From assembly GCA_945829225.1 (NCBI GenBank), contig CALZTY010000008.1, positions 1 to 64,000 of the forward strand: DNA of 64,000 nucleotides, read 5' to 3'. Under the pieces are notes generated by a model that searched no databases, was not told where the DNA came from, and saw nothing but the letters and a program-made list of their open reading frames with translations. The position numbers and the translations under genes are program-made. Shown here one piece after another: positions 37,152 to 54,204 of this stretch; within the stretch, counting starts at the first letter, position 1; each line of letters opens with the position of its first letter. Source of the stretch: an uncultured Bacteroidales bacterium. GTDB lineage: Bacteria; Bacteroidota; Bacteroidia; Bacteroidales; Muribaculaceae.

Positions 37152-37182
37152 TTTGCAAGTTAGAAAATATGGCTTAAATTTG
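37152..37182 (+). promoter_or_regulatory. Promoter of exbB-exbD-exbD-tonB
   Basis: TTTG at 37152-37155 and TAAATTTG at 37175-37182 with a 19-base spacer. The exbB ATG is 180 bases further on. Confidence 0.75.
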
Positions 37183-37362: not shown

Positions 37363-38196
37363 ATGGAAGCTCAAAAGCCTACCGCTCCTATCGGCAAGCC
37401 TGCCGCTAAGAACAAACCCGCGAAGAAAACAAATGCCCCCGGTATCAAGAATGCCTCTTGGGTAATCCTTGCATGCGCCGTTGTGTGCGTTTTGTTGTTT
37501 ATTTTCTGGTTCGGTAACGACATGCACTTTGAAGATGGTCACCCCAAGGATTTGTGGGGCACAATCTACAAGGGCGGTTTCATCGTGCCTATTCTTCAAA
37601 CCTTGTTCCTCACTGTTATCGTTATCTCGATCGAGCGTTGGTTCGCTTTGAACTCTGCCAAGGGTAAAGGTAACATCAGCAAGTTCGTTGCTGCCGTTAA
37701 GGCTTGCTTGGTTAAGAACGACATCGAGGGTGCTCAAGCACTCTGCAAGAAGCAGCAAGGCTCTGTTGCCGCTGTTGTTTCTGCCGCTCTCGTTAGCTAC
37801 AAGGAAATGGACACCAACACCATCCTCACCAAAGAGCAGAAGATTGCCAACCTCCAGAAGGTCGTTGAAGAGGCTACCGCCCTCGAGATGCCCGCTCTGC
37901 AGCAGAACCTCCCCATCGTTGCTACCCTGACTACCCTCGGTACTCTCGTCGGTCTTCTCGGTACTGTAATGGGTATGATCAAGTCATTCCAGGCTCTTGC
38001 TCAATCAGGCGCTCCTGACTCGACCGAGTTGTCAACCGGTATTTCTGAGGCACTTATCAATACCGCCTTCGGTATCGCCACCGGTGCCTTCGCCGTTATC
38101 TCGTATAACTTCTATACCAACAAGATCGATAACCTCACCTACGCTATCGACGAAATCGGCTTCTCAATCGTTCAGACATTCGCCGCTACACACTAA
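37363..38196 (+). CDS. exbB: MotA/TolQ/ExbB proton channel protein
   Basis: Proton-channel subunit that energises TonB. It has 277 residues. A Lys/Ala/Pro-rich cytosolic N-terminus (GKPAAKNKPAKKTN) is followed by a helix (SWVILACAVVCVLLFIFWF), a second (GFIVPILQTLFLTVIVISIE) and a cytosolic helical region. The conserved pair of C-terminal helices follows, with VATLTTLGTLVGLLGTVMGMI and INTAFGIATGAFAVIS, the ExbB pore motif. It is first of four genes; the gap to the first ExbD gene is 50 bases. The long leader suggests post-transcriptional control. Confidence 0.93.
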   Translation: MEAQKPTAPIGKPAAKNKPAKKTNAPGIKNASWVILACAVVCVLLFIFWFGNDMHFEDGHPKDLWGTIYKGGFIVPILQTLFLTVIVISIERWFALNSAKGKGNISKFVAAVKACLVKNDIEGAQALCKKQQGSVAAVVSAALVSYKEMDTNTILTKEQKIANLQKVVEEATALEMPALQQNLPIVATLTTLGTLVGLLGTVMGMIKSFQALAQSGAPDSTELSTGISEALINTAFGIATGAFAVISYNFYTNKIDNLTYAIDEIGFSIVQTFAATH

Positions 38197-38246
38197 TCCC
38201 GGTTTACCCTCTTTTCAAGACACAATTCTTTAAATAACAGGTAAAT

Positions 38247-39059
38247 ATGGGAAAAGTAAAAATTAAAAGAAAGAGTACGCTCATCGATATGACCGCGATG
38301 AGTGACGTGACTGTTCTTTTGCTTACTTTCTTCATGTTGACTTCGACCTTCTTGCAGAAAGAGCCCACCATCGTCTATACCCCGTCGTCGGTATCAGAGG
38401 AAAAGGTGCCCACCTATGACTTGGTGACCGTCCTCGTTTCATCTGCCGACAAGTCGGGTAAGTTGGAGGACCCCTCGGCTGCCGAAGGTAAACTCTTCAT
38501 CTCGTTCACCGGTGGTGAGGACTCCACGCTCTCGAGCGAAAAGGTGCGCATTATGATGCTCCAGGAGGCTGTCTCCATCTACAACGACCAGCACAAGAAC
38601 AACCCCGTAGAACTCACTACAGGCGAGGTTGCCGAATTTGGCAAGATCAACATGTTCGGTTGTCCGTTCTCCGAGCTCAAGTATATGTTGGGCTTGAGCA
38701 TTGCTGACCGCGACAAGTTCCTCGGCAACATGACTGATCCTCGTGTGGGTATTCCAATCGATGGTAATAAGAACCGCGATGGTCGTCTCAACGACTTCCA
38801 GGTGTGGTTGAAAGCCATCTACAATGTGGCTCAGCGCATCAACAACGAACAGTGCGCCGGTCTCACTCCCGAGGAAGCTCGCCAGGTACAGAACCTCTAT
38901 GCATCCCTCATGCGTCAAGGCAAGGGTATCGCAGTCAAGGCTGACAAGGACACCCCGTTCACCGTCGTGGAACAAGTCTTTGACAACCTCCAGACTATGA
39001 AACTCAACAAGTTCAGTCTTATGACTGCTCTTAAATCAGAAGATGAACCCACTCAATAA
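38247..39059 (+). CDS. exbD: ExbD/TolR-family protein, first copy (long form)
   Basis: Partner of ExbB. It has 270 residues, much longer than the roughly 140-residue E. coli ExbD. One N-terminal helix carries the conserved Asp (DMTAMSDVTVLLLTFFMLTS, Asp near residue 18). The periplasmic part is enlarged by segments such as GGEDSTLSSEKVRIMMLQEA and a middle region not seen in the short form. The C-terminal block TVVEQVFDNLQTMKLNKFSL resembles the ExbD end that binds TonB. A 15-base gap separates it from the second copy. Confidence 0.88.
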   Translation: MGKVKIKRKSTLIDMTAMSDVTVLLLTFFMLTSTFLQKEPTIVYTPSSVSEEKVPTYDLVTVLVSSADKSGKLEDPSAAEGKLFISFTGGEDSTLSSEKVRIMMLQEAVSIYNDQHKNNPVELTTGEVAEFGKINMFGCPFSELKYMLGLSIADRDKFLGNMTDPRVGIPIDGNKNRDGRLNDFQVWLKAIYNVAQRINNEQCAGLTPEEARQVQNLYASLMRQGKGIAVKADKDTPFTVVEQVFDNLQTMKLNKFSLMTALKSEDEPTQ

Positions 39060-39074
39060 AAAGGTAAACCCATT

Positions 39075-39809
39075 ATGGCTCAAATAGAACAATCCGACAA
39101 GGGCGGTAAGAAAAAGAAAGGCGCCCAGAAGAAGATGCAGATCCATGTGGACTTTACCCCCATGGTCGATATGAACATGCTTCTGATTACCTTCTTCATG
39201 CTTTGTACTACAATGATCAAATCGCAGACCCTGCAGATTGCATTGCCTACCAACGAAGAAGTGAAGAAGGAGCAGATGTCTCAAGCAAAGGCTTCGGAGG
39301 CTATTACCCTCATCCTCGATACCGAGTATGAAGGCAACAAGCCCAAAGTCGACGCAGAGACAGGCAAGACTGTTCACCACATCTATTATTATGAAGGTAT
39401 TGCCGATACTTTGTTCCAGACCGCAAACTATCTGCGTCACGAACAATTCATCGGTAACCAGAACCGTGAACCGCAAGGTATCCGTAGAATCCTCCGCAAG
39501 AAGAATGAGGAAGTTATGGTACAATATGACCTCCTCAAGACTCGCTGGAAGAATAAGGAAATCACCAAGGAAGAGTTTGATAAACTCGCTAAGGAGAACG
39601 CAGCCGACTCAATGAAGACTCGTCCCGTAGTTGTGATCAAACCCGGTCCCAACACCACCTACGAAGGCCTTATCAATGCCCTCGACGAGATGCAGATCAA
39701 CCAAATCTCGCGTTACTCGATCGAGCTCCCCAACCGCGTAGATACACTGTTGCTCCGTCACTACGAGCAAGTTAACGGCGTACAGATTATTCGTCCCACA
39801 GTGCGTTAA
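39075..39809 (+). CDS. exbD: ExbD/TolR-family protein, second copy
   Basis: It has 244 residues. A basic N-terminus (GGKKKKGAQKKMQ) precedes the single helix with the conserved Asp in DFTPMVDMNMLLITFFML. The C-terminal part has VVIKPGPNTTYEGLINALDEMQ, matching the ExbD periplasmic fold. A charged insertion (about 145-185, LRKKNEEVMVQYDLLKTRWK) separates these. Two tandem, non-identical ExbD genes after ExbB are common in Bacteroidetes; they may form a mixed dimer in the pore. Confidence 0.9.
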   Translation: MAQIEQSDKGGKKKKGAQKKMQIHVDFTPMVDMNMLLITFFMLCTTMIKSQTLQIALPTNEEVKKEQMSQAKASEAITLILDTEYEGNKPKVDAETGKTVHHIYYYEGIADTLFQTANYLRHEQFIGNQNREPQGIRRILRKKNEEVMVQYDLLKTRWKNKEITKEEFDKLAKENAADSMKTRPVVVIKPGPNTTYEGLINALDEMQINQISRYSIELPNRVDTLLLRHYEQVNGVQIIRPTVR

Positions 39810-39845
39810 GTAATGATTTATTAACCGTTTAAACCGTTACAGACA

Positions 39846-40706
39846 ATGGCAAAAGATGTTGATCTTTCATCAAAAGAGTGGTGCGATATAGTCTTTGAAG
39901 GCAAGAACAAGGAATTTGGTGCATACGTATTGCGCAACCAATCTCCCTCTCGCCACAATCGTGCCGTACTCATCGTGCTCGCTGCTTTGGCAGTAATTTT
40001 GGGTCTGCTTATCCTCAGCATCACCGGCGTGTTCTCACGCGGCGAAGAGGAAGGCGCCGATGTCGCTACCGAGCAGGAAATCGCTACCCTCAACTCACAA
40101 GATGAGGAGATGGAGGAAGAGGAAGAAGAAATCATCTATCAGGAACCTGAAGAAGAAATCGCTCCCCCCGAAGAAGTAGCAAACGAGCAACGTGTAACCG
40201 AAACCCTCGTCGTACAAGATGAGGACTTCGACCAGTCCAAGGAAGTAAAGACTCAGGAAGAAATTACTGAGAACGAAGCAATGGCAGGTGCCGTCGACGT
40301 TACCGACGGTGTCAATGACCAGAACAAGCAATCAATCCGTGAGACCATTATTGCAGAAGCTCCCGCTGCTCCCGAGCCCGAGAAGGTTTATACCATGGCA
40401 ATGGTAGAGCAGAAGCCCGAGTTCCCCGGTGGTGAGGCTGCAATGTACAAGTGGCTCGGCGACCACATCAACTATCCCGCTCAAGCATCCGAAGAAGGTG
40501 TTCAGGGTCGTGTAGTTGTTCAATTCGACGTCGCCAAGGACGGTTCGATTGTCAATGTTAAGATTGCTCGCGGTCGTCACCCGGCACTCGACAAGGAGGC
40601 TGTACGTCTCGTGAAGTCGATGCCCGCATGGCAACCCGGCCGTAACAATGGTCAGCCCGTGAAGGTTACTTACACTCTCCCCATTACTTTCAAGTTGCAA
40701 CAGTAA
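39846..40706 (+). CDS. tonB: Energy transducer TonB
   Basis: Transmits proton-motive force to outer-membrane receptors. It has 286 residues, with a cytosolic N-terminus (about 1-39), one transmembrane helix (VLIVLAALAVILGLLILSI, about residues 42-60) and a periplasmic linker. The linker is strongly acidic (MEEEEEEIIYQEPEEEIAPP) rather than the Lys-Pro type of proteobacterial TonB. The C-terminal TonB domain (about 185-286) has QKPEFPGGEAAMYKWLGDHI, YPAQASEEGVQGRVVVQFDV and AWQPGRNNGQPVKV. It is last in the exbB operon, immediately upstream of the B12 riboswitch locus, and is a plausible energy source for the BtuB-like receptor. Confidence 0.93.
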   Translation: MAKDVDLSSKEWCDIVFEGKNKEFGAYVLRNQSPSRHNRAVLIVLAALAVILGLLILSITGVFSRGEEEGADVATEQEIATLNSQDEEMEEEEEEIIYQEPEEEIAPPEEVANEQRVTETLVVQDEDFDQSKEVKTQEEITENEAMAGAVDVTDGVNDQNKQSIRETIIAEAPAAPEPEKVYTMAMVEQKPEFPGGEAAMYKWLGDHINYPAQASEEGVQGRVVVQFDVAKDGSIVNVKIARGRHPALDKEAVRLVKSMPAWQPGRNNGQPVKVTYTLPITFKLQQ

Positions 40707-40796: not shown

Positions 40797-40827
40797 TTTG
40801 ATAATTCAAAAATAAGACTTAACTTTG
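40797..40827 (+). promoter_or_regulatory. Promoter of the B12 uptake operon
   Basis: TTTG at 40797-40800 and TAACTTTG at 40820-40827 with a 19-base spacer. The riboswitch begins just downstream. Confidence 0.8.
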
Positions 40828-40830
40828 CGC

Positions 40831-41022
40831 TGAAATTGGTTGCTGCCGAAGAGTCGGCGCCAAAGCATTAATAGGGAACGAGGTGAGATTCCTCGACAGT
40901 ACCCGCTGCTGTAATTCCCGCTCGCCTTTGAGCGAGCAAAGCCGTCGCCAAACACCACTGATTCCTCAGAGAATTGGGAAGGGGCGAATGAGCCGGGATA
41001 AGCCAGAAGACCTGCCATTTCA
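40831..41022 (+). promoter_or_regulatory. Cobalamin (B12) riboswitch
   Basis: Contains the conserved cobalamin-aptamer elements in order: AGGGAACgaGGTGAgATTCC-like core (40872-40890), CAGTACCCGCTGCTGTAA (the B12 box region), a variable stem CGCTCGCC/GAGCGAG, and AAGCCAGAAGACCTGCC at the 3' side. P1 can form between TGAAATtGG (40831-40839) and CCATTTCA (41015-41022). Another 150 bases to the btuB ATG (41173) form the expression platform. It should switch off the downstream operon when B12 is plentiful. Confidence 0.95.
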
Positions 41023-41172
41023 CATATATAAATTCAATTGGCTCACGGGATTATGAGCAGGATTGTCACCATATCGGTAGCGCATATGTCGCTATGTGTT
41101 GTGTTCCTATGAAGTAATCGTCGTTGTGCCAATGGTGGTATTAACGGCGTTTTTTAATATCTAAGAATAGGA

Positions 41173-43164
41173 ATGACATATAGACTATTGTTGATAGTGG
41201 GACTCATGGCAATTTGTGCCGGCACGACAATGGCAGAGTCTAATGACACACTTCATTTGCACGAAGTGTCGGTCACAGCGACGCGACGGCTTCCGGAAGT
41301 AATTCCGGTGCAGAGTCTCAGCGGAGAACAGCTGCAGAGGCTGAATAGCAATAGTGTCGCTGATGCATTGAGGTACTTCGCCGGCGTGCAAGTGAAGGAC
41401 TATGGTGGCGTTGGTGGTATCAAGACCATCAACATTCGCTCGATGGGTACTAATCACACCGGTGTGGTGTATGATGGCGTTGAATTGGGAAATGCGCAGA
41501 ACGGTCAAATAGACCTCGGTCAATTTTCACTTGACAACATAGAAGAAATATCACTGTACAACGGGCAGAAAAGCCGTATCTTACAGCCGGCAAAGGACTT
41601 TGGCAACGCCGGGACCATTTACTTGCGAACCCGAGTGCCTCAGTTTGCTCCCGGTGAGACCTATCATGCCAAGGTGACGATGCGCACAGGCTCTTTTGAC
41701 CTTATCAATCCATCGGCATTGGTCGAGTTGAAACTGGGCGAGAGAGTCAATGCCTCGTTGAGCGCTGAATGGGTCAATTCTTCGGGTAAATATAAGTTCA
41801 GATATCGCCGAGTGAATCCGGCAGGCGAGTTGGCATACGATACTACGGCAGTGCGACAGAATGGTGATATCAATGCCACGCGTCTCGAGATGGGGGTCAA
41901 TGGCACTATTGATGGTGGCGAGTGGCACATCAAGGCTTATAATTACAACTCGGAGCGAGGTGTCCCCGGCGCTATAGTGAACAATGTATGGCGACGTGGC
42001 GAGCGTATATGGGATACCAACTCTTTTATCCAGGGTAGTTTCACCTATGGTGTAGGGCGATTTACTACGTTGAATAATTTCAAATATGCGTTCTATCGTA
42101 CTCACTATGTAAATAATGATGATAAGCAGGTGAAGATTGACAATCTGTATCGGCAACGCGAGTTGTATGTGTCAACAGCAAATCAGTATGCGCTGACATC
42201 TTGGTGGAGTGTTGCCGCAGCAAACGATTTCCAGTGGAATGACTTGCGTGCAGATATGTATGATTTTGCTCGTCCAACGCGTCTAACTGATATGTTGTCA
42301 ATCGCCACATCAGTGGATACACGGCGCTTCAAGATGCAAGCGTCGCTGTTGGGCACCTTTGTTCATGACCGACTTGAAGGGAAGGAGTCACCTGCCGACA
42401 AGCATGCACTTACCCCGGCGGTGATGGCAAGTGTCGCACCGCTTTGCCGACTTAAGGAGTTGACAGTAAGGGCGTTCTACAAACAGTCGTTCCGTATGCC
42501 CACCTTCAACGACCTTTATTATGCCGATATGGGTAACTCGCGACTCGAGCCGGAGCGAGTCACTCAGTACAATGTTGGCTTGCTCCTTGATAAGCGATTT
42601 GCCGGCTTGCTCAGTCACTTGCGAGTGAGTGTTGATGCCTATTACAATAAGGTGACCAATAAGATAGTAGCATATCCCAAGGGGCAACAGTTCAGATGGA
42701 CAATGCTTAACTTGGGTAAGGTAGATATCAGAGGCATAGATGTGTCGACTCAATCCACTTTTGAACCGATAGGAAGCGTTTTTGTGACCGTTCGCGGACA
42801 ATATACTTACCAGCGTGCCATCGATGTGACCAATCCTGCCGACAACTATTACCGCGACCAGATACCTTATATACCGCACCACTCGGGCTCGGCGGTGGTG
42901 AATGTGCAGTGGCATCAGTGGACAATCAATTATAGTTACATATATGTGGGTAGTCGCTACAATCAGCAAGAGAACATACGCTACAACTATACCCAGCCGT
43001 GGTATACGTCGGATGTATCGCTCTCTCGAGACCTGCGAGTAGGGCGCGTCGATATGCGCGTATTGCTTGAGGTGAACAATTTGCTGAGTCAGGATTACGA
43101 TGTAATTCTCAATTACCCGATGCCTAAGCGAAATTTTCGTCTTACGTTAAGAGCAGAAATATGA
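41173..43164 (+). CDS. btuB: TonB-dependent vitamin B12 receptor (BtuB-like)
   Basis: Outer-membrane transporter for corrinoids, by homology and by its riboswitch. It has 663 residues: signal peptide (LLLIVGLMAICAGTTMA), TonB-box region, plug domain (VADALRYFAGVQVKDYGGVGG to about residue 150, with NIRSMGTNHTGVVYDGVELG), then a 22-strand barrel ending in NFRLTLRAEI. The late LEVNNLLSQDYDVI-like block (here EVNNLLSQDYDVILNYP) is typical of TonB receptors. It overlaps the next gene by 4 bases. Specificity for B12 is inferred from the riboswitch and the BtuG-like neighbour, not from ligand residues. Confidence 0.92.
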   Translation: MTYRLLLIVGLMAICAGTTMAESNDTLHLHEVSVTATRRLPEVIPVQSLSGEQLQRLNSNSVADALRYFAGVQVKDYGGVGGIKTINIRSMGTNHTGVVYDGVELGNAQNGQIDLGQFSLDNIEEISLYNGQKSRILQPAKDFGNAGTIYLRTRVPQFAPGETYHAKVTMRTGSFDLINPSALVELKLGERVNASLSAEWVNSSGKYKFRYRRVNPAGELAYDTTAVRQNGDINATRLEMGVNGTIDGGEWHIKAYNYNSERGVPGAIVNNVWRRGERIWDTNSFIQGSFTYGVGRFTTLNNFKYAFYRTHYVNNDDKQVKIDNLYRQRELYVSTANQYALTSWWSVAAANDFQWNDLRADMYDFARPTRLTDMLSIATSVDTRRFKMQASLLGTFVHDRLEGKESPADKHALTPAVMASVAPLCRLKELTVRAFYKQSFRMPTFNDLYYADMGNSRLEPERVTQYNVGLLLDKRFAGLLSHLRVSVDAYYNKVTNKIVAYPKGQQFRWTMLNLGKVDIRGIDVSTQSTFEPIGSVFVTVRGQYTYQRAIDVTNPADNYYRDQIPYIPHHSGSAVVNVQWHQWTINYSYIYVGSRYNQQENIRYNYTQPWYTSDVSLSRDLRVGRVDMRVLLEVNNLLSQDYDVILNYPMPKRNFRLTLRAEI

Positions 43165-44312
43165 AACGGATATTTTTAAAAATTTTTCTGCCACTCCTGA
43201 TGGTCGCCACGAGTTGTCGAGATGACGAACTCGTGGTGCCGACGGAGTTTGATATTGTAGGTGATGAACAGTTTGGTACGGGTGTGCGTGGACTATATCT
43301 GCTCAACGAGGGCAATATGGGCTCTAACAAATGCACGCTTGACTATTACGACTACCACACCGGCTTGTATGCGCGGAATTTTTACTCAGAGCGCAATCCG
43401 CAGGTTATCAAGGAATTGGGAGATGTTGGTAACGATATAGGAATATATGGGGGCAAGATGTATGTGGTGGTCAATTGCTCGCACAAGGTAGAAGTCCTTG
43501 ATGCGTATAGCGGAGTGCGTATCGGTCAAGTGGATATACCGAATTGCCGTTATGTGCGATTTCATCGCGGCAAGGCATATGTGAGTGCCTATGTGGGACC
43601 GGTGCTGATTGACCCTGAGGCTCCACGTGGTGCAGTCTTTGAGGTAGATACTGCCACACTGGAGATAACACGCAAGGTAACAGTTGGTTATCAGCCCGAG
43701 GAGATGGAGGTGATAGATGACTATATGTATGTCGCCAATTCGGGCGGCTATCGAGCCCCCGACTACGACCGCACCGTCTCAGTGATACAGATGGTAGACT
43801 TCAAGCAAGTGCGACAGATAGATGTGGATATAAATCTACACCGTGTTAAGCGTGATGCCTACAAGCAATTGTGGGTGAGTTCGCGAGGCGATTATGGCGA
43901 GCGACCCTCGCGCCTATATGTTTTGGGTAAGCGAGCCGGGTACAACGAAATGCAAGTTATAGATACTATAGACGTGGCATGCTCCAATATGGCTATCAAG
44001 GGCGACTCGCTGTTTTTCTATGCTACCGAGTGGAATAATTATACGCAGCGAAACACAGTATCGTATGGCATAATAGATGTGCGCACTCATGAGGTGATTT
44101 CCACCAATTTCATCAGCGACGGTACCGAGCAGCAAATCACAATCCCCTACGGCATCGCGGTGCATCCTGTCACCGGTGATATATTTGTGACTGATGCCAA
44201 GAATTATGTAAGTAGCGGCACCTTGTATTGCTTTGACCGACAAGGACGATGCAAGTGGAGTGTTCGCACCGGCGATATACCGGCACATATGACATTCTTA
44301 ATGGAGCGATGA
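43161..44312 (+). CDS. btuG: BtuG-like surface lipoprotein (beta-propeller, DUF5074/YncE type)
   Basis: A 383-residue lipoprotein (lipobox MVATSC, Cys19) with an acidic RDDE after the Cys, as in surface-exported Bacteroidetes lipoproteins. The rest is blade-like repeats of a seven-bladed propeller: LLNEGNMGSNKCTLDYYD, DVGNDIGIYGGKMYVVVN, EVLDAYSGVRIGQVD, YMYVANSGG, then GIAVHPVTGDIFVTDA. In B. thetaiotaomicron BtuG caps BtuB and binds B12 very tightly. The position directly after btuB, with a 4-base overlap, fits that role. It shares its first-blade pattern (NE.n.G.n....Y) with the two later propeller proteins of this operon. Confidence 0.85.
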   Translation: MKRIFLKIFLPLLMVATSCRDDELVVPTEFDIVGDEQFGTGVRGLYLLNEGNMGSNKCTLDYYDYHTGLYARNFYSERNPQVIKELGDVGNDIGIYGGKMYVVVNCSHKVEVLDAYSGVRIGQVDIPNCRYVRFHRGKAYVSAYVGPVLIDPEAPRGAVFEVDTATLEITRKVTVGYQPEEMEVIDDYMYVANSGGYRAPDYDRTVSVIQMVDFKQVRQIDVDINLHRVKRDAYKQLWVSSRGDYGERPSRLYVLGKRAGYNEMQVIDTIDVACSNMAIKGDSLFFYATEWNNYTQRNTVSYGIIDVRTHEVISTNFISDGTEQQITIPYGIAVHPVTGDIFVTDAKNYVSSGTLYCFDRQGRCKWSVRTGDIPAHMTFLMER

Positions 44313-45517
44313 AACGATTGGTATACTGCATATTATCACTATTGATGCTTGCCTGCACCGACGAGATACCGATGGTCAATTTGGGTGTAGATGAGGTGTA
44401 TATAATACCTCGAATGAGTAAGTTGTCACTACATCCGGCTCTTACCGGTGCGTCATATAGTTGGAAAGTGGATGGCGAGGAGGTGTCAACGGCGCGTGAT
44501 TACATATTCATTGCGGCACATGAAGGTGTGTACAGCCTGAGCCTTGATATTATAGATTCGACGACGCCATATCATCATGAGTTTGAGGTGTATGTCGTAC
44601 ACGAGGAGGTAGAATATAGTCCGTATATTGAGAATGTGTATGAGTACTGTCCTGCGCCGGGGCAATTTATCAATACGATGCCTCAGTATGTGGCAGGCGA
44701 CAGTTATGGAGATATGTTGCGCAAGTGCACTGAATCTCTGTCTGGGACCAACGACGTGCTGGTATCGTTGGGAGGTTTCGGTGGATATATCACCTTCGGA
44801 TTTGACCACACGGTGATAAACCAAGCCGGAGAGAAGGACTTTCGCATATGGGGCAACTCTTTCTATGATGCGAGCCACACTGATATGGTCGGAGGGTCGT
44901 CGGAGCCCGGTGTGGTGATGGTGAGCCTCGATGTAAATTGCAACGGCTTGCCCGACGACCCATGGTATGAGATTGCCGGGAGTGAGTATTGCAATCCGGC
45001 GACAATACATGGCTATAGCATTATATATCATCGTCCCGACTCGCAACGAGAGATAGTAAAGGATGCGAGTGGCAATCTCACGGATTTATATTACATAATG
45101 TGGGAAGATTCGCAAGGGACGATAGGGTATATGCCCAAGAATAAGTTCCATAATCAAGACTACTATCCCTGCTGGATAGTAGACGATACGATAAATTTCA
45201 AAGGGACCCGTTTGCCCGACAATGCGATAGATATCTCGGGGCGAGGTATGTATTACTTCCAGAGGGCATTTGCGTGGGGCTATGCCGATAATCACCCCAA
45301 CGATGAGGCGGAGTTGTGCTCCTACGATATATCGTGGGCGGTGAATGAGTATGGGATGCCGGTGGACTTGCCGGGTATAGATTTTGTGAGGGTGTACACC
45401 GGGGAGAATCAATACTGTGGGTGGATAGGAGAGACATCCACTGAGATTACCCGGGCTGCCGACCTGCATATATATAGTGAATTACCAGGACATAATAGTA
45501 TAAGTGCCTATAGATAA
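44309..45517 (+). CDS. Surface lipoprotein of the B12 operon (PKD/Ig-like N-terminus)
   Basis: A 402-residue lipoprotein from the ATG at 44309, overlapping the previous stop by 4 bases. The lipobox is LMLACTDE (Cys16). About residues 25-95 look like a PKD/Ig-like domain (SYSWKVDGEEVSTARDY, EGVYSLSLDIID). The remainder contains VSLGGFGGYITFGFDHTV, KDFRIWGNSFYDAS, EPGVVMVSLDVNCNGLPDDP and ISWAVNEYGMPVDLPGIDFV, a pattern found in lipoproteins of Bacteroidetes B12 loci annotated as cell-surface protein. It may be an additional B12-binding surface protein such as those called BtuH, but I cannot confirm that assignment. Confidence 0.7.
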   Translation: MKRLVYCILSLLMLACTDEIPMVNLGVDEVYIIPRMSKLSLHPALTGASYSWKVDGEEVSTARDYIFIAAHEGVYSLSLDIIDSTTPYHHEFEVYVVHEEVEYSPYIENVYEYCPAPGQFINTMPQYVAGDSYGDMLRKCTESLSGTNDVLVSLGGFGGYITFGFDHTVINQAGEKDFRIWGNSFYDASHTDMVGGSSEPGVVMVSLDVNCNGLPDDPWYEIAGSEYCNPATIHGYSIIYHRPDSQREIVKDASGNLTDLYYIMWEDSQGTIGYMPKNKFHNQDYYPCWIVDDTINFKGTRLPDNAIDISGRGMYYFQRAFAWGYADNHPNDEAELCSYDISWAVNEYGMPVDLPGIDFVRVYTGENQYCGWIGETSTEITRAADLHIYSELPGHNSISAYR

Positions 45518-45543
45518 GATTATTAACTAAATATTAAAAGCCC

Positions 45544-48500
45544 ATGAAAAGATTTTTTACGGGCCTTTTGAGTACACTGGCGGTGCTAAGCGTTACAGCC
45601 GCGGGAAGTGTTCCTCAAAAGGTACAAGGGGTGGCTTACACCCCAAGAACAGGAGCTGTTGCACCATTAGCCTACAGTGAGCCGGCGGATATGCCGGGCG
45701 ATGGCAGTTTCACGATGGATATGATACAAAGTTGGACAGGCGAGGGATCAAAACGTGCAGCGATGGTCATACAGTGGAATGATGACGCAGAGGAATCGGC
45801 ACTGGTATTTGGCTTTCGTTGGGATGGCGATGCTACAGGAGCGGATATGTTCCGAGCCATAGTATCAGCCAATCCTCAGTTGTATGGATTGATCCAGTAC
45901 ACCAATGTATCATCGCCGACCGACCCAAATGGAGGCTACACCATTGATGGTATAGGCTGGGATATCGATATCGAGGGCAATATAGCGCTTACCGATCGTT
46001 TTGGCAAGTGGTATGAGTCGGAGGGCGGCTTATTCATACACCCACGCGGCTATGTGCCGGGCGAGAGCAGTTCGATAGACTATGACTATGACGACTGGGT
46101 GTCTCGTGATAAGTATGACCGCTGGGGTGCCGGGTGGTATAAGTCGTATTGGTCGTATTGGGTTAAGAGCGACCAATCGTCCAATTTTGCTTATTCGGGC
46201 TTGGGCGCTTCGGGACGTGTACTTACTGATGGCTGCTGGGATGGCTGGAATTTCAATGTCGGTATGGCTACCCACGCATGGAAATCATTTGTGGCTGCTC
46301 CTCCGATTCCCGACGGCTATAAGAAGGATATCGTGTACAACGACTTGCATTATAGGTTGAAAAACGGTATCTCAAAGACAGTGCTGCTCGCAGATGCAAA
46401 TGAATCGACCGGAACATATACGGGCGATATAGTGGTACCGTCGACCTTTGTAGATGAAGGAATTACATATACGGTTGAAGGTGTGACGGTATCGGCATTT
46501 GCCGATTCTGAAGCAACGACAGTGAGTCTTCCATCGTCAATTACAGAGATTAGACCATTGACATTTAAGGGGTCGAAGTCGTTACAGACGATAACATTCA
46601 GCGGAGAGAATAAAGTGAAGATAGTGGGCGAAGGAGCCTTTGACGGTTGCACATCGCTGACTACATTTCTGTTGCCCCAGGGAAGGACAAGTATTGGCGC
46701 ACGCACCTATGCGGGGACAGCCATAACGAGTGTAGATATTCCCGTCGAAATCACTTCTATCGGAGAGGAGGCATTTAGAGATTGTAGTGCGCTCACCGAG
46801 GTGATAGTTCACACCGTGTATCCGCTTGAGATCGCCGATGAGACATTCGGCACAGCCGCAAACAAAGCAACGTTGGTAGTTCCTACCGGCTATATAAGTA
46901 CCTATCAATCAGCCACAGGGTGGTCAAATTTTGCCAATTTCGCTGAACAAACTATTCCGGTCAATGTCGGAGATATATTCCCTGTCAACGGTGTTACCTA
47001 CCAAGTTACATCAATGGACGAGGGCGCATTGACAGTGATGGCTACTCATTGCCGTGTATCAGGAGCAGCGTCTACCTCGGCGATAAAAACTGCAAATGCC
47101 GGATATAGTGGCGATCTTGTTGTACCCGAGAAGGTAGTGTACCAAGGATTGGAATTTGCAGTTACGGCAATAGATAAATATGCCTTCTACTATGCTACCG
47201 GATTGACATCCATGACAATCGAAGCTCCGATTACTACTCTGCCGTCGTACATCTTTAGCGGTTGCTCGGCACTCACCCACATTGACATACCGTCGACCGT
47301 AACGGCAATAGAAACAGCTGCATTCTCTGGCTGTACAAAGTTGGAATTTACTCTGCCCGAGACGGTTACCGAATTGGGAGCGGAAACATTCAAGAATTGC
47401 ACAAAAATCACAGAGTTTAATTTCCCGGGGTCGATGACCACCATACCTAGTAGTATCTTGTATGGTTGTACCGGCTTGACTACTGTGACTTTTGGCGACA
47501 ATGTCACCTCGATAGGTGCAAATGCTTTCTACGGATGTACCTCATTGACAAATATAGTAATACCCGAGACAGTAGAGACTCTCGGTTCATCTGTGTTCAA
47601 GAATTGTAGCAAACTTGTATCGGTCGAATTACCCAATGGGTTGCAGACCATCGGCGGCTATGCATTTCAGAATACCGCGATATCGCAGTTGGTGATTCCG
47701 GCTACGGTGACCACGATGACAGTTAACGACGTGGTAAATGGTTGCCCTGCGGATATAAAGATATATATGTGTAATCCTACGCCGGTAAATAGTTCGACAA
47801 ACACATGGCGCTTGACGAGTACGACATATGCTCCTATCATCGTACCCGCGGGATGTGTGGACGCATATACGAATTACAATAATTATTGGAAAAAATCTAA
47901 AATAAGTTCGCCGGAATTGAGCGCGGTAGAAGCTCTTGATTATAAAGGGCTTATATTACAAGGCAAGACCGTATTCAGTGGCAGATTAAAAGGAACATAT
48001 ACAATGCCTACTGAAGCAGAAGAGACGCCGGAAGCCAAGCCTGCCCGCGAAGTTGCAATGCGAGGTGATTTACCCGAGGCGTTTGCCGAAGGTTGCGATA
48101 AGGCTGTTATATGTGGCAAAACAATAACAGTTAAATATAGATTCAGACCGCTCACCGGTTATAAATCACAAAAAGTAACAGCAGGAGAAGACGGGTCATT
48201 TGAATTCGAAACAATAGAATCAGAATCGCCCAAGATGATGCTTGGTGTTGCTGTAGGAAGTGTGGAATCAAAAACATATACGCTTTATGCAATAGTGGTG
48301 GTAACTGATATCATATTGGGCGATGGAAGCGATGATATTTATATTACCTATAAGGATATACTTGCACTGACACCTACTATTGAGCCGGAAGATGCCGGGG
48401 ATCAAACCTTTACCGTCTCGGTGGGAGATGAGAGCATTGCATCGACTTACTCGGTGTCTGTATCCAATCCGACTCGTCAGTTCTACGAACTGGTAACTCA

Positions 48501-50214
48501 CAATATTGGCGAAACAACATTGACATTTACCTCAAATGACGATTATGGCTTCTCGCGCACATATAATATCCACGTTGTAGATCCCGACCGCACACCGGCA
48601 GCCGATGATTACCAAGATGGTACTTTCTGGCTCAACGAGGAGTGGTATGGCCACACTAATGGGTCGATAAATTACATCACCTCGGATTATGATGTAATGT
48701 ATCGCGCATATGAAGCACAAAACCCGGAGATGTCATTCGGCGTAACATCGCAGTATGGCACGATATATGGCAATCACTTGATAGTGATGTCCAAGCAGGC
48801 ATCAGAGACAAAAGACGACCGTGAGGGTGGTAGATTAGTGGTCGCAGATGCTACTACGCTCGTCAATAAGGCAGCCTTCAGTGATATAGGCGGTGATGGA
48901 CGAGCCTGCGTGGGTGCTGCCGGTAAGGTATACCTCGGCACCACAGGCGGTATACGCGTACTTTCACTTGAAGACTACACCTTAGGTGATATGATAGACG
49001 GTACCGTGGGCAGCGGAGGTTTGTATAGCGGTCAACTCGGCGATATGGTAGCCTCCGGTGGCTATGTATTTGCTATCCGTCAAGAAGTAGGTGTACTGGT
49101 AATCAATACCGCAACAGATGAATTGGAAAAGACTTTCACCACATCAGAAGTGAATAATCCTCAAGGTATTGTCGTTGATTGCAACGGCAATGTGTGGGTA
49201 GCCTCGACCGATGCTTCGGATAACGGATACTTCCATTGTATCTCGCCCGAGACACTTGAGGTGATGGAGAGTGTTGCACTGCCCGAAGGCAAGAGTGTAA
49301 TCTGCCAATGGGGTGCATGGCACTCGTCAAACTTCTTTGCATCCAAGAAGAGTGAGACCCTATGGTGGGGCACTGTCTACACAAGTTGGTCGGGAGACAA
49401 AGAGTACTACAAGTGGGAAATCGGAGATGTCACCGACGGAGTCGCTAATGCACAATTGGTGTACACCTTCCCCGATAATTTGGCGGCTGAGAACTCACTC
49501 TATCAATTGCCCTATGCAACAGCTGGCTATGACGAGCGAAATGATATGTTGCTGATAGCAGCCAATCGTGGTTACTCGGGCAACTATCGATACAATTGGT
49601 TGCACTTCATAAACTGCGAACATGGAGTGATAGTTAAGACTATCCAACTCAAGGATTACTATTGGTTCCCTGCTATGCCTATATTTCCCGACAAGTATGC
49701 ACCCGAATTTGGGGCTATGCCCGAGAGTATATTTGTCAATGTAGATGTTGCCAAGCCGTATACGCTTGATTTGTCAGGTGTTAGCGATGCAGATGGAATA
49801 GATGCATGCATAGCATTGAGCATAGACGATAGCGATTTGTCGTCAATTGCCGATGTGGTGTGCAACGGTCACACCGTCACAATCAGCCACAAAGGTGTTA
49901 TAGGCGATGGAACGCTGAGCATTAATGCCGAGTCAAATGGTAAAATCTCTACGGTTGATATCCCGGTGCAAATCGGCAAGAGTACGGGTGTAAACGATGC
50001 AATTGCTGCCGGAGTTATCTCGTTCAGTGAAAATCGATTGCATTTAATCGGTCTGTGTGGTAAGCAATTTGTAATATATAATGTTGCCGGCACCGAGGTG
50101 GGTGCATTTGACGTTGAAAGCGAAGATGTCACCGTAAGCCTTGCGCTCGTGCCCGGAGCATATATAGTTGCAAGTACAGACGGCACGCGCCGCATAAAAA
50201 TTAACATTCAGTAA
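45544..50214 (+). CDS. Giant secreted protein: N-terminal domain, BspA-type leucine-rich repeats, BtuG-like propeller, T9SS-like tail
   Basis: A 1556-residue protein with a Sec signal peptide and no lipobox. About 45-270 is an aromatic-rich domain (RFGKWYESEGGLFIHPRG, WGAGWYKSYWSYWVKSD). About 300-450 and 472-745 are BspA/LRR_5 repeats (SITEIRPLTF, KIVGEGAFDGCTSLTTFLLP, SIGANAFYGCTSLTNIVIPE). About 797-1010 is beta-rich and not recognised. About 1015-1410 is a propeller resembling the next protein (WLNEEWYGHTNGSINYI, LVVADATTL, YYWFPAMPIFPD). About 1480-1556 resembles a type IX sorting domain (FVIYNVAGTEVGAFDVES ... GAYIV ... RRIKINIQ). Its place behind the riboswitch suggests a cobalamin-binding or scavenging surface protein, which is inference. 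It starts 26 bases after the lipoprotein gene. Confidence 0.85.
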   Translation: MKRFFTGLLSTLAVLSVTAAGSVPQKVQGVAYTPRTGAVAPLAYSEPADMPGDGSFTMDMIQSWTGEGSKRAAMVIQWNDDAEESALVFGFRWDGDATGADMFRAIVSANPQLYGLIQYTNVSSPTDPNGGYTIDGIGWDIDIEGNIALTDRFGKWYESEGGLFIHPRGYVPGESSSIDYDYDDWVSRDKYDRWGAGWYKSYWSYWVKSDQSSNFAYSGLGASGRVLTDGCWDGWNFNVGMATHAWKSFVAAPPIPDGYKKDIVYNDLHYRLKNGISKTVLLADANESTGTYTGDIVVPSTFVDEGITYTVEGVTVSAFADSEATTVSLPSSITEIRPLTFKGSKSLQTITFSGENKVKIVGEGAFDGCTSLTTFLLPQGRTSIGARTYAGTAITSVDIPVEITSIGEEAFRDCSALTEVIVHTVYPLEIADETFGTAANKATLVVPTGYISTYQSATGWSNFANFAEQTIPVNVGDIFPVNGVTYQVTSMDEGALTVMATHCRVSGAASTSAIKTANAGYSGDLVVPEKVVYQGLEFAVTAIDKYAFYYATGLTSMTIEAPITTLPSYIFSGCSALTHIDIPSTVTAIETAAFSGCTKLEFTLPETVTELGAETFKNCTKITEFNFPGSMTTIPSSILYGCTGLTTVTFGDNVTSIGANAFYGCTSLTNIVIPETVETLGSSVFKNCSKLVSVELPNGLQTIGGYAFQNTAISQLVIPATVTTMTVNDVVNGCPADIKIYMCNPTPVNSSTNTWRLTSTTYAPIIVPAGCVDAYTNYNNYWKKSKISSPELSAVEALDYKGLILQGKTVFSGRLKGTYTMPTEAEETPEAKPAREVAMRGDLPEAFAEGCDKAVICGKTITVKYRFRPLTGYKSQKVTAGEDGSFEFETIESESPKMMLGVAVGSVESKTYTLYAIVVVTDIILGDGSDDIYITYKDILALTPTIEPEDAGDQTFTVSVGDESIASTYSVSVSNPTRQFYELVTHNIGETTLTFTSNDDYGFSRTYNIHVVDPDRTPAADDYQDGTFWLNEEWYGHTNGSINYITSDYDVMYRAYEAQNPEMSFGVTSQYGTIYGNHLIVMSKQASETKDDREGGRLVVADATTLVNKAAFSDIGGDGRACVGAAGKVYLGTTGGIRVLSLEDYTLGDMIDGTVGSGGLYSGQLGDMVASGGYVFAIRQEVGVLVINTATDELEKTFTTSEVNNPQGIVVDCNGNVWVASTDASDNGYFHCISPETLEVMESVALPEGKSVICQWGAWHSSNFFASKKSETLWWGTVYTSWSGDKEYYKWEIGDVTDGVANAQLVYTFPDNLAAENSLYQLPYATAGYDERNDMLLIAANRGYSGNYRYNWLHFINCEHGVIVKTIQLKDYYWFPAMPIFPDKYAPEFGAMPESIFVNVDVAKPYTLDLSGVSDADGIDACIALSIDDSDLSSIADVVCNGHTVTISHKGVIGDGTLSINAESNGKISTVDIPVQIGKSTGVNDAIAAGVISFSENRLHLIGLCGKQFVIYNVAGTEVGAFDVESEDVTVSLALVPGAYIVASTDGTRRIKINIQ

Positions 50215-50223
50215 TAATTAGAG

Positions 50224-51573
50224 ATGAAAAAGGCAATATTTCTTGCCTCGTTGACTATAATCGCATCTTGCCCGACATATTTGTCGGGTCAAGATGTTGA
50301 TTATACAACGGGCGTATTTATAGTAAATGAGGATTGGTATGGACACCAGAACTCTACAGTAAATTACTTGTTACCGGATGCCGAAGAAGGCGAACAATGG
50401 CATTATCGTGTTATACAGACTGAAAATCCCGGTGTAGAGTTGGGCTGTACCAATCAGTATGGAGCCATCTATGAGGGCCGCTTCTACTTGATAGCCAAGC
50501 AGGAGAAAGATCCCGGAGCCAAGATTACCGGCGGGCGTATCACCGTAGCAGATGCCACGACACTTGAAGTGTTGTATCAAAGTGCACTGATAGACCCATC
50601 GGGAGCGCAATGTGATGGCAGAGGCTTCGTGGGCGTTACACCACACAAGGGATATATATCGGCGAGCAACGGCATATGGGTGTTTGACTTGGATACCTAC
50701 GAAGTAAGCGGTATGATAGCCGGTACGGGGACCACGTCAACCACCGGCTCGCTCTATGAGGGACAATGTGGCTCAATGATTATGGCATCGGGCAAGGTGT
50801 TTGCCGCCCATCAGCAGAGGGGCTTGTTGGTCATTGACCCGGATAAAGACCAATTGATAGCCACTATTGATATGAATCAGATCGCTGAAGGTGCCGGAAT
50901 AGGGTCGGTAACGCGAGCACTTGACGGGTCGGTATGGGTGAGTGTGGCTGCCGATACCTATGGTGGCGGATCCACTTTGCCCTATCTGATGCGAGTGGAC
51001 CCGGAAACATTGGAGACCGAGGTGGTCGCCTTGGGTGACGAAATTGCGGCACCATGCAACTCGTGGTATGCGTGGACACCTGACACCTTCTGTCCCTCGT
51101 ATCAAACAAATAGCCTATATTGGACCGGAGGGGAGACGTGGTTTGGGCGTGCACAAGTGTACAGATTTGATGTAGACTCGCGCATTGCCGAGAAAATCAT
51201 TGACCTTGATGACGATGGTGATGGCTGGCTAATCTACGGTTGCTCAATGCGAGTACATCCCGAGACAGATGAGATATATGCCTCGTTGTTCCATGAAGTC
51301 ACCGTGCCAACGTATGTGTTGCGTCGTTTTACCCCTGATGGTGAACCATTGCAGGATTATGAGATGATTTCCAACTATTGGTTCCCGTCACTTCCGGTAT
51401 TTCCGACGTCGCCCGACAACTATGCGACAATCACCTCCCTCGAATCGGAATCAAGTCGCGAAGAAGTGTATTGGTACAACTTGCAAGGCGTAAAGGTTGA
51501 TATTCACCACGCTGCTCCGGGTATATATATACGCCGATGTGGTGTAAAGGTCGAAAAATTCATAATTAGATAG
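50224..51573 (+). CDS. Secreted BtuG-like beta-propeller protein with T9SS-like tail
   Basis: A 449-residue protein with a signal peptide (KKAIFLASLTIIASCPTYLSG). The Cys in it is not in a convincing lipobox context, so SPI cleavage is more likely. The body parallels the propeller of the 1556-residue protein: FIVNEDWYGHQNSTVNYL, ITVADATTLEVLYQSA, GGSTLPYLMRVDPETLE, YWFPSLPVFP. The C-terminal VYWYNLQGVKVDIHHAAPGI, then YIRRCGVKVEKFIIR, is a short form of the T9SS type A sorting tail. It is the last gene of the riboswitch operon, 9 bases after the giant gene and followed by a terminator. The probable role is extracellular corrinoid binding. Confidence 0.82.
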   Translation: MKKAIFLASLTIIASCPTYLSGQDVDYTTGVFIVNEDWYGHQNSTVNYLLPDAEEGEQWHYRVIQTENPGVELGCTNQYGAIYEGRFYLIAKQEKDPGAKITGGRITVADATTLEVLYQSALIDPSGAQCDGRGFVGVTPHKGYISASNGIWVFDLDTYEVSGMIAGTGTTSTTGSLYEGQCGSMIMASGKVFAAHQQRGLLVIDPDKDQLIATIDMNQIAEGAGIGSVTRALDGSVWVSVAADTYGGGSTLPYLMRVDPETLETEVVALGDEIAAPCNSWYAWTPDTFCPSYQTNSLYWTGGETWFGRAQVYRFDVDSRIAEKIIDLDDDGDGWLIYGCSMRVHPETDEIYASLFHEVTVPTYVLRRFTPDGEPLQDYEMISNYWFPSLPVFPTSPDNYATITSLESESSREEVYWYNLQGVKVDIHHAAPGIYIRRCGVKVEKFIIR

Positions 51574-51592
51574 ATTGGTATTAACGTGTAAG

Positions 51593-51629
51593 AAAATCGG
51601 CGCCTGCATTGATTGAGGCGCCGATTTTT
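51593..51629. terminator. Bidirectional terminator between B12 operon and nrdJ
   Basis: AAAATCGGCGCCT (51593-51605) pairs with AGGCGCCGATTTT (51616-51628), with T and A tracts on both strands. It serves both convergent units. Confidence 0.95.
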
Positions 51630-51651: not shown

Positions 51652-54204
51652 TTAGCCGCACTTGGAGCTGCCGCAGTTGGTGCAGATGAGGCAGCCTTCT
51701 TGGTAGACGAGGGTCTCTTGACCGCAGTTGGGGCAACGTTGACCCTTGGCGCTGGTGCCGTTGGGGAGGTATTTCTTGAGGGCACGCTCGACACCCATCT
51801 TCCAGGTGTTGATGGATTGGGAGTCGAGTTCGAGACCGCCGACTAACTTGAGAACTTGGTCGATGGGCATGCCGTAGCGAAGTACACCCGAGATAAGTTT
51901 GGCATAGTTCCAGTATTCGGGGTTGAACTTGTCGCTAAGACCCTCGATGGTGGTCTTGTAGCCGCGCTTGTTGATGAATTGGAAGTCGTAGCGTTTGTTG
52001 CCGTCGGCATCGATAGCCTTGATAATCTTGCCGTGGTTGACCGATTTGGGGCAGAAGATGCCGTCGTCGTCATCGGCGAGACCGGTGAAGATTTCGTAGG
52101 GCTTGCCGTCGATGAGACCGACGAAGGCAATCCACTTCTCCTTGTTGTTCTGGAAGCGAACGACGTCAGCCTCGAGTTCGATGGGGCGCTTGGCGACGTG
52201 GGGAGCGGGGAAGCCGTTTTCTTCGGCAGCGGGCTCGTCCTTTTTCTTCTTGCTATTCTCCATGGCAACGAGGACACCCGAGCGGCAGCCATCGCGATAG
52301 ACGGTGCAGCCCTTGCAACCCGACTTCCATGCTTCGAGGTAGAGGCTGTTGACCACTTCCTCGCTGACGTCGGATGGAAGGTTGATGGTCACCGAGATGG
52401 AGTGGTCGACCCACTTCTGTATGCGGCCCTGCATGTGTACCTTCTCGAGCCAATCGATTTCGTTGGCAGTGGCGCCGGCATAGGGCGAGCGAGCCACCAG
52501 GTCGTTGATTTCTTCCTGGGTGTAGTTGTTCTTGACCTCGATGCCCTTTACCTTCATCCAGTCGATGAATTTGGGGTGGTAAACGATAAATTCCTCGAAG
52601 GCATCACCTGTCTCGTCGACATAGTCAATGGTGACATTGGGGTCGTTGGGGTTGACCTTGCGGCGGCGCTTGTAGACCGGCATGAAGACGGGTTCAATGC
52701 CCGAGGTGGTGCGAGTCATGAGCGAAGTGGTGCCGGTGGGGGCGATGGTGAGGCATGCGATGTTGCGGCGGCCGTATTGCTTCATCTGCTCGTAGAGAGC
52801 GGGGTCGGCTTCGGCGAGGCGCTGCATGAAGGGGTTGTTCTTCTCGCGGTCGGCATCAAAGATGGCGAATGCGCCACGGCTGCGAGCCATGTCGACTGAG
52901 GAGCGATAAGCGGCGAGCGCCAATTCGCGGTGGACGGTTTCGGAGAATTGAGTGGCATCGGGGGTGCCGTATTTGTAGCCGAGTGCGGCGAGCATATCGC
53001 CCTCGGCAGTGGTACCCACGCCGGTGCGGCGACCTTGACCGGTCTTGTGCTTGATTTTGAGCCAAAGGTTACGCTCGGTCGACTTAACTTCTTCGGTCTC
53101 GGGGTCTTGGTCGATTTTGCTGAGGATAGCGTCGATTTTCTCCATCTCGAGGTCGATGATGTCGTCCATCATGCGCTGAGCGCGAGTGATGTGGCTACGG
53201 AAGAGGTCGAAGTCGAAGTAAGCCTCGGGAGTGAAGGGATTGACAACGTAACTGAAGAGGTTGACTGCGAGGAGTCGGCAGCTGTCGTAGGGGCAGAGAG
53301 GAATTTCGCCGCAGGGGTTGGTGGAGATAGTGCGGAAGCCGAGGTCGGCGTAGCAGTCGGGGAGCGACTCGCGAGTGATGGTGTCCCAGAAGAGGACGCC
53401 GGGCTCGGCTGATTTCCAAGCGTTGTGGATGATTTTAGCCCAAATGGCAGATGCGTCGACCTCCTTGGTGATATAAGGCTCGTTGGAGTCGACGGGGAAT
53501 TGCTGAACGTAGGGAGTGCCTGACTCGGCAGCGCGCATGAAGTCGTCGTCGATGCGCACCGATACATTGGCACCGGTGACCTTGCCTTCGACCATCTTGG
53601 CATCGATGAAAGCCTCGGCATCGGGGTGCTTGATGGACACGGTCATCATCAAGGCGCCGCGGCGACCATCTTGAGCGACCTCGCGAGTGGAGTTGGAGTA
53701 GCGCTCCATGAAGGGGACGAGACCGGTGGATGTGAGGGCTGAATTCTTGACGGGTGTGCCCTTGGGGCGGATGTGCGACAGGTCGTGACCTACGCCACCG
53801 CGACGCTTCATGAGTTGGACTTGCTCCTCGTCGATGCGGATTACGCCGCCGTAGGAGTCGGGGGTGCCGTCCAATCCGATAACGAAGCAGTTGGAGAGCG
53901 AGCCGACCTGGAAGTTGTTGCCGATGCCGGTCATGGGGCTGCCTTGGGGCACGATGTACTTGAAGTTGCGGAGCAATTCAAATACCTCATCGTGAGACAT
54001 TGGCTCGGGGTACTTGTTCTCAATTCGGACAATTTCGTCGGCGATACGATGGTGCATATCGTCGGGAGTTCTTTCGTAAAGATTACCGAAAGAATCTTTC
54101 AAGGCATACTTGTTCGCCCACACTCGGGCGGCGAGTTCATCGCCACCGAAGTATTCTTTTGACGCCTCGTATGCCTCGTCGAATGTATAAGTTTTCTTTT
54201 CCAC
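51652..54204 (-). CDS. nrdJ: Adenosylcobalamin-dependent ribonucleotide reductase (class II)
   Basis: Reduces ribonucleotides to deoxyribonucleotides using adenosyl-B12. It has 850 residues. The active-site loop NPCGEIPL (near residue 297) supplies the Asn, radical-site Cys and Glu. SLSNCFV gives one redox Cys. IAPTGTTSLMTRTTSGIEPV is the second-half core block, and GCKGCTVYRDGCR and the C-terminal zinc-ribbon-like CPNCGQ and CTNCGSSKCG follow. Unlike many NrdJ proteins I see no TSCPD motif at its C-terminus; a stand-alone TSCPD protein is at 12231-12479. It converges on the B12 uptake operon and shares its terminator. Its own promoter shows no riboswitch in the roughly 66-base leader. Confidence 0.95.
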   Translation of the reverse strand: MEKKTYTFDEAYEASKEYFGGDELAARVWANKYALKDSFGNLYERTPDDMHHRIADEIVRIENKYPEPMSHDEVFELLRNFKYIVPQGSPMTGIGNNFQVGSLSNCFVIGLDGTPDSYGGVIRIDEEQVQLMKRRGGVGHDLSHIRPKGTPVKNSALTSTGLVPFMERYSNSTREVAQDGRRGALMMTVSIKHPDAEAFIDAKMVEGKVTGANVSVRIDDDFMRAAESGTPYVQQFPVDSNEPYITKEVDASAIWAKIIHNAWKSAEPGVLFWDTITRESLPDCYADLGFRTISTNPCGEIPLCPYDSCRLLAVNLFSYVVNPFTPEAYFDFDLFRSHITRAQRMMDDIIDLEMEKIDAILSKIDQDPETEEVKSTERNLWLKIKHKTGQGRRTGVGTTAEGDMLAALGYKYGTPDATQFSETVHRELALAAYRSSVDMARSRGAFAIFDADREKNNPFMQRLAEADPALYEQMKQYGRRNIACLTIAPTGTTSLMTRTTSGIEPVFMPVYKRRRKVNPNDPNVTIDYVDETGDAFEEFIVYHPKFIDWMKVKGIEVKNNYTQEEINDLVARSPYAGATANEIDWLEKVHMQGRIQKWVDHSISVTINLPSDVSEEVVNSLYLEAWKSGCKGCTVYRDGCRSGVLVAMENSKKKKDEPAAEENGFPAPHVAKRPIELEADVVRFQNNKEKWIAFVGLIDGKPYEIFTGLADDDDGIFCPKSVNHGKIIKAIDADGNKRYDFQFINKRGYKTTIEGLSDKFNPEYWNYAKLISGVLRYGMPIDQVLKLVGGLELDSQSINTWKMGVERALKKYLPNGTSAKGQRCPNCGQETLVYQEGCLICTNCGSSKCG

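Follow-up and report, generated by a model that had tools for sequence, protein, structure and literature searches.

A cobalamin riboswitch-led operon of Muribaculaceae combines BtuB, BtuG and BtuH with two BtuK-like propeller proteins predicted to use type IX secretion

Introduction

The closest described systems to the locus analysed here are the btu operons of Bacteroides thetaiotaomicron, which account for ten cobalamin-binding proteins; operon 1 holds BtuK1, BtuK2, BtuH1, BtuGH and BtuJ1 (PMC12751083). Here we describe a five-gene vitamin B12 (cobalamin) acquisition operon at positions 40,797–51,629 of a 64,000-nucleotide stretch of DNA (the window; contig CALZTY010000008.1, assembly GCA_945829225.1) from an uncultured Bacteroidales bacterium of the Muribaculaceae. 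In common with B. thetaiotaomicron operons 1–3 it has a cobalamin riboswitch, a BtuB–BtuG core, a BtuH and extra propellers, the latter represented in operon 1 by BtuK1 and BtuK2 (PMC12751083). Unlike those operons, genes 4 and 5 carry tails of the type IX secretion system (T9SS) type in place of lipidation signals, one propeller is fused to leucine-rich repeats (LRRs) and a new domain, and DUF4465, the BtuJ family, has no match in the genome.

The original prediction for this locus took one BtuG per BtuB to be the known state and read several propellers under one switch as an expansion. Operons with several binders have already been described in B. thetaiotaomicron (PMC12751083), and the arrangement is a variant of the one found there. 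The less expected features are the LRR fusion, the new N-terminal domain, the predicted T9SS export and the conservation across Muribaculaceae; a search of the literature on DUF5074, BtuK, LRR proteins and Muribaculaceae B12 uptake returned nothing on this arrangement. Judging by computed homology, fold, synteny, riboswitch linkage and sorting tails, we consider it probable that the locus is a riboswitch-controlled corrinoid-scavenging operon in which two T9SS-exported, BtuK-like capture proteins feed BtuH, BtuG and BtuB.

Results

A single switched unit of five genes

The operon opens with a Bacteroidetes-type promoter, TTTG-N19-TAACTTTG (40,797–40,827, forward strand), an exact match to the consensus established for this phylum. 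It runs into the sole cobalamin riboswitch in the window (aptamer RF00174, 40,820–41,033, forward strand; cmscan 91.1 bits against a gathering cut-off of 31.5, E = 3e-21), which contains an exact B12 box, AGCCAGAAGACCTGCC. The five genes downstream, all on the forward strand, overlap by 4 nt or are separated by gaps of 26 nt (before gene 4, the longest) and 9 nt (before gene 5). Coordinates and scans thus agree with the original prediction of five genes, with overlaps or gaps of at most 26 bases, behind one promoter and one cobalamin riboswitch, and the locus is a tightly packed, cobalamin-riboswitch-led operon.

It is very improbable that genes 4 and 5 are a separate, B12-unrelated transcription unit that lies downstream by chance. 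Weak sigma-70-like matches do occur inside the operon, for instance at 44,309 and 44,841, but their number is not much above the chance level (30 against 21.7 expected, standard deviation 3.5). The pattern TTTG-N18..20-TANNTTTG has three exact matches in the 64 kb against 0.35 expected, and the single one inside the operon is the promoter at 40,797–40,827; the exact-pattern scan found no second Bacteroidetes-type promoter there. This includes the interval 44.3–45.5 kb, which had been singled out beforehand as the place for a possible B12-independent promoter. A promoter of their own for genes 4 and 5, without support in either scan, was rejected. Further points against a separate unit are the short gaps, a gene order kept over many genera, and the presence of gene 4 and 5 paralogues directly behind other cobalamin riboswitches.

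Genes 1–3 encode BtuB, BtuG and BtuH

Gene 1 (41,173–43,164) is assigned by homology to BtuB, the TonB-dependent B12 transporter. It matches B. thetaiotaomicron BtuB1 (8blw_A) at E = 2.5e-129, as the predicted BtuB-like receptor should, and has the TonB plug domain of Pfam; TIGR01779 scores 127 bits, under its cut-off. Gene 2 (43,161–44,312) overlaps btuB by 4 nt and was correctly foreseen as a BtuG-like lipoprotein. It matches the BtuG part of BtuG1 (8blw_B, E = 2.7e-43) and Pfam DUF5074 (4e-16), and direct reading of the translation gives a lipobox, VATSC-RDDE, with acidic residues after the cysteine. As a homologous β-propeller beside BtuB with a lipoprotein signal, gene 2 is classed as BtuG and is a candidate cobalamin binder.

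Gene 3 had been noted simply as a second lipoprotein. The lipoprotein assignment stands (lipobox LMLAC-TDE), and the label can be completed: the protein, with a PKD-like part (Pfam PKD_3) and a C-terminal BtuH domain, matches the BtuH part of 8blw_B at E = 2.1e-73 and BtuH2 (7biz) at E = 3.3e-43. BtuH2 has the same two parts, with three PKD-like domains against one recognisable in gene 3. The start of gene 3 was moved from the mechanical open reading frame at 44,249 to the ATG at 44,309, where the lipoprotein signal MKRLVYCILSLLMLAC begins; the gene (44,309–45,517) then overlaps btuG by 4 nt. BtuH is among the families known to bind B12 (PMC8941943), which brings the candidate B12-binding proteins of the operon, BtuB not counted, to four.

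Contig 17 of the genome encodes BtuB, BtuG and BtuH a second time (L009:1947–6315), here with no BtuK-like genes. No Rfam riboswitch was found in the 9 kb examined around this trio, which is followed by a convergent gene for another BspA-type LRR protein.

The arrangement and its riboswitch are conserved

All five genes occur in order in 50 of 80 named loci of a separate collection, and BtuB, BtuG and BtuH are together present in 56 of the 59 loci with sufficient upstream sequence. The stretch upstream of BtuB was available for the window and 37 relatives, and in each of these 38 loci it contains a B12 box with no more than two mismatches; among 760 control stretches none came below four mismatches.

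DUF5074 propellers were surveyed in 99 Muribaculaceae genomes to see how many matches above 150 bits follow a cobalamin riboswitch of the same strand within 12 kb. At least 46 of the 67 matches do so, and weaker riboswitches in the scanned loci add five, giving at least 51 of 67. From about two riboswitches per 2.5 Mb, we estimate that chance would account for about 0.5% of matches, so the linkage is not a matter of local coincidence. In ten cases the riboswitch is within 900 nt of the propeller domain. The genome studied here carries two cobalamin riboswitches. About 120 nt separate the second, on contig 41 (L008:8083–8286), from the gene that follows it, which codes for a single DUF5074 propeller of 502 residues with a sorting-type tail (L008:6455–7963, reverse strand) and has mutS among its unrelated neighbours.

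Fold, sequence, synteny and riboswitch linkage together make an expanded corrinoid-capture operon under one switch well supported. The expansion that had been predicted therefore stands as a description, and falls as a novelty given the multi-binder operons already known.

Genes 4 and 5 carry BtuK-like propellers

Gene 5 (50,224–51,573; 449 residues) is a stand-alone propeller with a C-terminal sorting domain, whereas gene 4 (45,544–50,214) is a secreted giant of 1556 residues whose propeller is encoded at 48,598–49,740. Both match Pfam DUF5074 (gene 4, 1e-90; gene 5, 1e-113). Among PDB entries, the profile of gene 5 relatives matches 9s6c alone (3e-16); that of the giants' propellers matches 9s6c at 3.1e-21, with BtuG3 (about 1e-9) and BtuG2 (about 1e-8) next. 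The fold search gives the title of 9s6c as 'B12 Binding protein - BtuK1', and a quinoprotein name for this entry was set aside as misleading.

AlphaFold2 models of the two propellers have a mean predicted local distance difference test score of 87.0 (gene 5) and 86.7 (giant). In Foldseek searches of the PDB, the first 18 matches of the gene 5 model are all BtuG or BtuK1 (BtuG2 9.8e-17, BtuK1 2.6e-16), followed by Keap1 at about 9e-9. The first 19 matches of the giant's propeller are likewise BtuK1 or BtuG, starting from BtuK1 at 5.8e-18, and then comes nitrite reductase at 9e-11. By profile and model, the two propellers are thus nearest to BtuK1 in sequence, and the resemblance of their predicted folds to BtuK1 and BtuG far exceeds that to other propellers.

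BtuK1 (BT_1486) shares with both propellers the fold and the motifs NExWxGH and LGxTxQ, at about 20% identity. It is a lipoprotein. Genes 4 and 5 have the propeller homology of B. thetaiotaomicron BtuK, but their family shows type I-like signal peptides and C-terminal sorting domains instead of lipidation, with an ambiguous IASC in gene 5; we therefore file them as BtuK-like rather than as BtuK. With BtuG1–3 (8blw, 8bmy, 8okv, 3dsm) they have in common a seven-bladed propeller and a blade-1 NE loop; unlike BtuG, they have NE.W.GH for NEGN, no conserved lipobox and no place beside BtuB. Of the three BtuG-like propellers originally proposed, gene 2 is retained. For genes 4 and 5 the BtuG-like fold expected of them was recovered, and the name BtuG was rejected because the nearest relative by profile is BtuK1.

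A first-blade pattern had been pointed out in all three propellers, and it goes beyond chance. The segments LLNEGNMGSNK (gene 2, 383 residues), WLNEEWYGHTNGS (giant) and VNEDWYGHQNS (gene 5) stand at one homologous position; all three proteins belong to DUF5074, and the alignment of the BtuG with the BtuK-like profiles begins at this motif and extends over about 298 columns, with an hhalign probability of 97% for the most diverse alignment and 34% and 82% for two narrower ones. BtuG2 grips B12 through Asn54–Thr64 together with a blade-5 loop (PMC10404256). Asn54–Thr64 reads NEGNFQYSNAT, numbered as in the deposited chain, and occupies the position of the shared pattern. The NEGN form is that of BtuG, and the NE.W.GH form that of BtuK1 and genes 4 and 5.

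Sorting tails point to type IX export

Relatives of gene 5 have type I-like signal peptides without a lipobox, as judged by eye, and a C-terminal segment of the form YxLxGxxV...GIYI...K.xI. The profile of these tails aligns with type IX sorting domains encoded in the genome itself (hhalign 97%, E = 1.9e-10), and, taken singly, 16 of the 35 family tails reach E ≤ 1 against Por_Secre_tail. The giant ends in a comparable domain, T9SS type A-like (49,972–50,211). The genome encodes SprA (615 bits) and PorV (429 bits), so that genes 4 and 5 show both features looked for in T9SS cargo, a C-terminal sorting domain and a translocon in the genome, and most Muribaculaceae have a T9SS (PMC4936053). From signal peptides, tails, translocon components and the distribution of the system in the family, export of genes 4 and 5 by the T9SS is likely, and they look type IX-secreted rather than lipidated. 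A second PorV-family outer membrane protein is encoded within the window (16,333–17,256, reverse strand; 145 bits).

Do the BtuK-like propellers bind corrinoid?

Several observations weigh against the proposed exported capture proteins. Identity of the gene 4 and 5 propellers to BtuK1 and BtuG is no more than 13–21% over structural alignments. Single tails match Por_Secre_tail weakly or not at all, the giant's tail alone has no match, and the case is carried by the family profile. Near the N-terminus of gene 5, IASC can be read as a lipobox, a sequence that its relatives do not have. Finally, BtuK1 binds cobalamin tightly, being one of the ten cobalamin-binding proteins measured in B. thetaiotaomicron, and yet its homologue BtuK2 showed no binding (PMC12751083); homology by itself is accordingly no proof of binding for genes 4 and 5.

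In one alternative reading, genes 4 and 5 share the regulation of B12 uptake and bind no corrinoid, having drifted like BtuK2 towards the adhesive, vesicle-releasing or structural roles considered for BtuL. BtuL also is B12-regulated and bound no cobalamin (PMC12751083), and the giant adds LRR_5 repeats typical of adhesins and a similarity to HupY/LrrG. Against such drift, the NE[DEG]W[YF]GH loop and a W-containing loop are strongly conserved over many genera, and genes for such propellers frequently come first after a riboswitch; we regard loss of binding as unlikely. Less probable still is that the ligand of the propellers is another molecule, such as heme, a glycan or a B12 carrier protein of the host, and that they aid B12 acquisition indirectly. 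In favour of this, the ligands of propellers are many, intrinsic factor gives up its B12 to BtuG2 (PMC10404256), and host or bacterial proteins could be docking partners for the LRRs; against it, all nearest relatives of solved structure, whether ranked by sequence or by fold, bind cobalamin. On grounds of homology, corrinoid binding by both proteins is likely, though not certain.

In other genomes the giant's N-terminal domain often stands first behind a cobalamin riboswitch

From its N-terminus the giant consists of a new domain, here called NDOM (residues ~53–294; 45,700–46,425), a BspA-type LRR_5 region (approximate limits 46,441–47,883; Pfam E = 2.2e-82), the BtuK-like propeller and the sorting tail. 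NDOM has the motifs WTGEG, FGFRWDG, YWSYW and DGWNF, and no match in Pfam or the PDB; assignment to DUF4465/BtuJ or to any solved fold was rejected on these empty searches. Its weak likeness to the SCO2322 family (NF040672), over about 40 residues at about 20 bits and at most about 21, is far under the 85-bit cut-off, and this candidate was rejected as well.

NDOM was present in 25 of the 198 Bacteroidales genomes searched. Among 20 further loci, 18 have a cobalamin riboswitch, with the NDOM gene directly behind it in 15; outside Bacteroidales the riboswitch is adjacent in five of eight genomes. Altogether, leaving out the genome of the window, 23 of 28 genomes have NDOM next to a cobalamin riboswitch, in most cases as the first gene (loci L159–L172, L175–L178, L180, L182 and L186–L188). 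NDOM occurs by itself or in tandem copies, and also in fusions with a propeller or with LRRs plus a propeller. Often its gene encodes a T9SS-tailed protein of 260–580 residues, and genes for a further secreted protein, BtuB and BtuG come next. This linkage is consistent, and by association a corrinoid-related role is the leading hypothesis for NDOM.

We tentatively extend this to a picture of the giant as a two-headed corrinoid trap, to which we give rather less than even weight: NDOM would be a new corrinoid-binding or -handling family across Bacteroidia, mostly type IX-secreted and first behind cobalamin riboswitches, and the LRRs would join it to the BtuK-like propeller in a capture arm independent of lipidation.

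In two loci (L165:5500–7221 and L166:5555–7291) a propeller-like N-terminal part is joined to NDOM and a sorting tail, right behind the riboswitch. A conserved secreted protein of 325–354 residues (PPAGQEGSTAIHADSS..., with a T9SS tail) lies between the NDOM gene and BtuB in L164–L169, L171, L172, L177 and L178; in L169 it precedes a receptor-like frame at the contig end. It has no family match other than the tail and is possibly a distant BtuH counterpart.

Neighbouring genes

The uptake operon is flanked by genes for its energy supply and for a B12 consumer. Upstream, ExbB-ExbD-ExbD-TonB (37,363–40,706, forward strand) form a separate unit with its own consensus promoter at 37,152–37,182. 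Downstream, and convergent with the operon rather than part of it, is NrdJ, an adenosylcobalamin-dependent ribonucleotide reductase (51,652–54,204, reverse strand; TIGR02504, 553 bits, cut-off 400).

Discussion

The sequence evidence is consistent with the following course of events, for which corrinoid binding, handover, export route and the part played by the LRRs are inferred from the computed features. When B12 is scarce, the riboswitch would permit expression of the BtuBG transporter with its lid, of BtuH and of the two BtuK-like propeller proteins. The latter would be exported by the T9SS without lipid anchoring, and would therefore sit on the outer surface or be released. The stand-alone propeller and the giant may then capture corrinoid outside the cell and hand it over, probably via BtuH, to BtuG and BtuB, with uptake presumably powered by the neighbouring TonB system. 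Within the giant, NDOM and the propeller would be the two heads that handle corrinoid, and the LRRs between them probably a spacer or an adhesive.

Muribaculaceae, which have no complete B12 synthesis pathway (PMC4936053), are abundant in the gut of mice and other mammals. B12 uptake has been worked out almost solely in Bacteroides. The locus described here indicates a conserved five-gene variant in Muribaculaceae, in which the extra capture proteins appear to be exported differently and can be much larger, and the riboswitch linkage of NDOM offers a direct hypothesis for this domain, namely that it may bind corrinoids.

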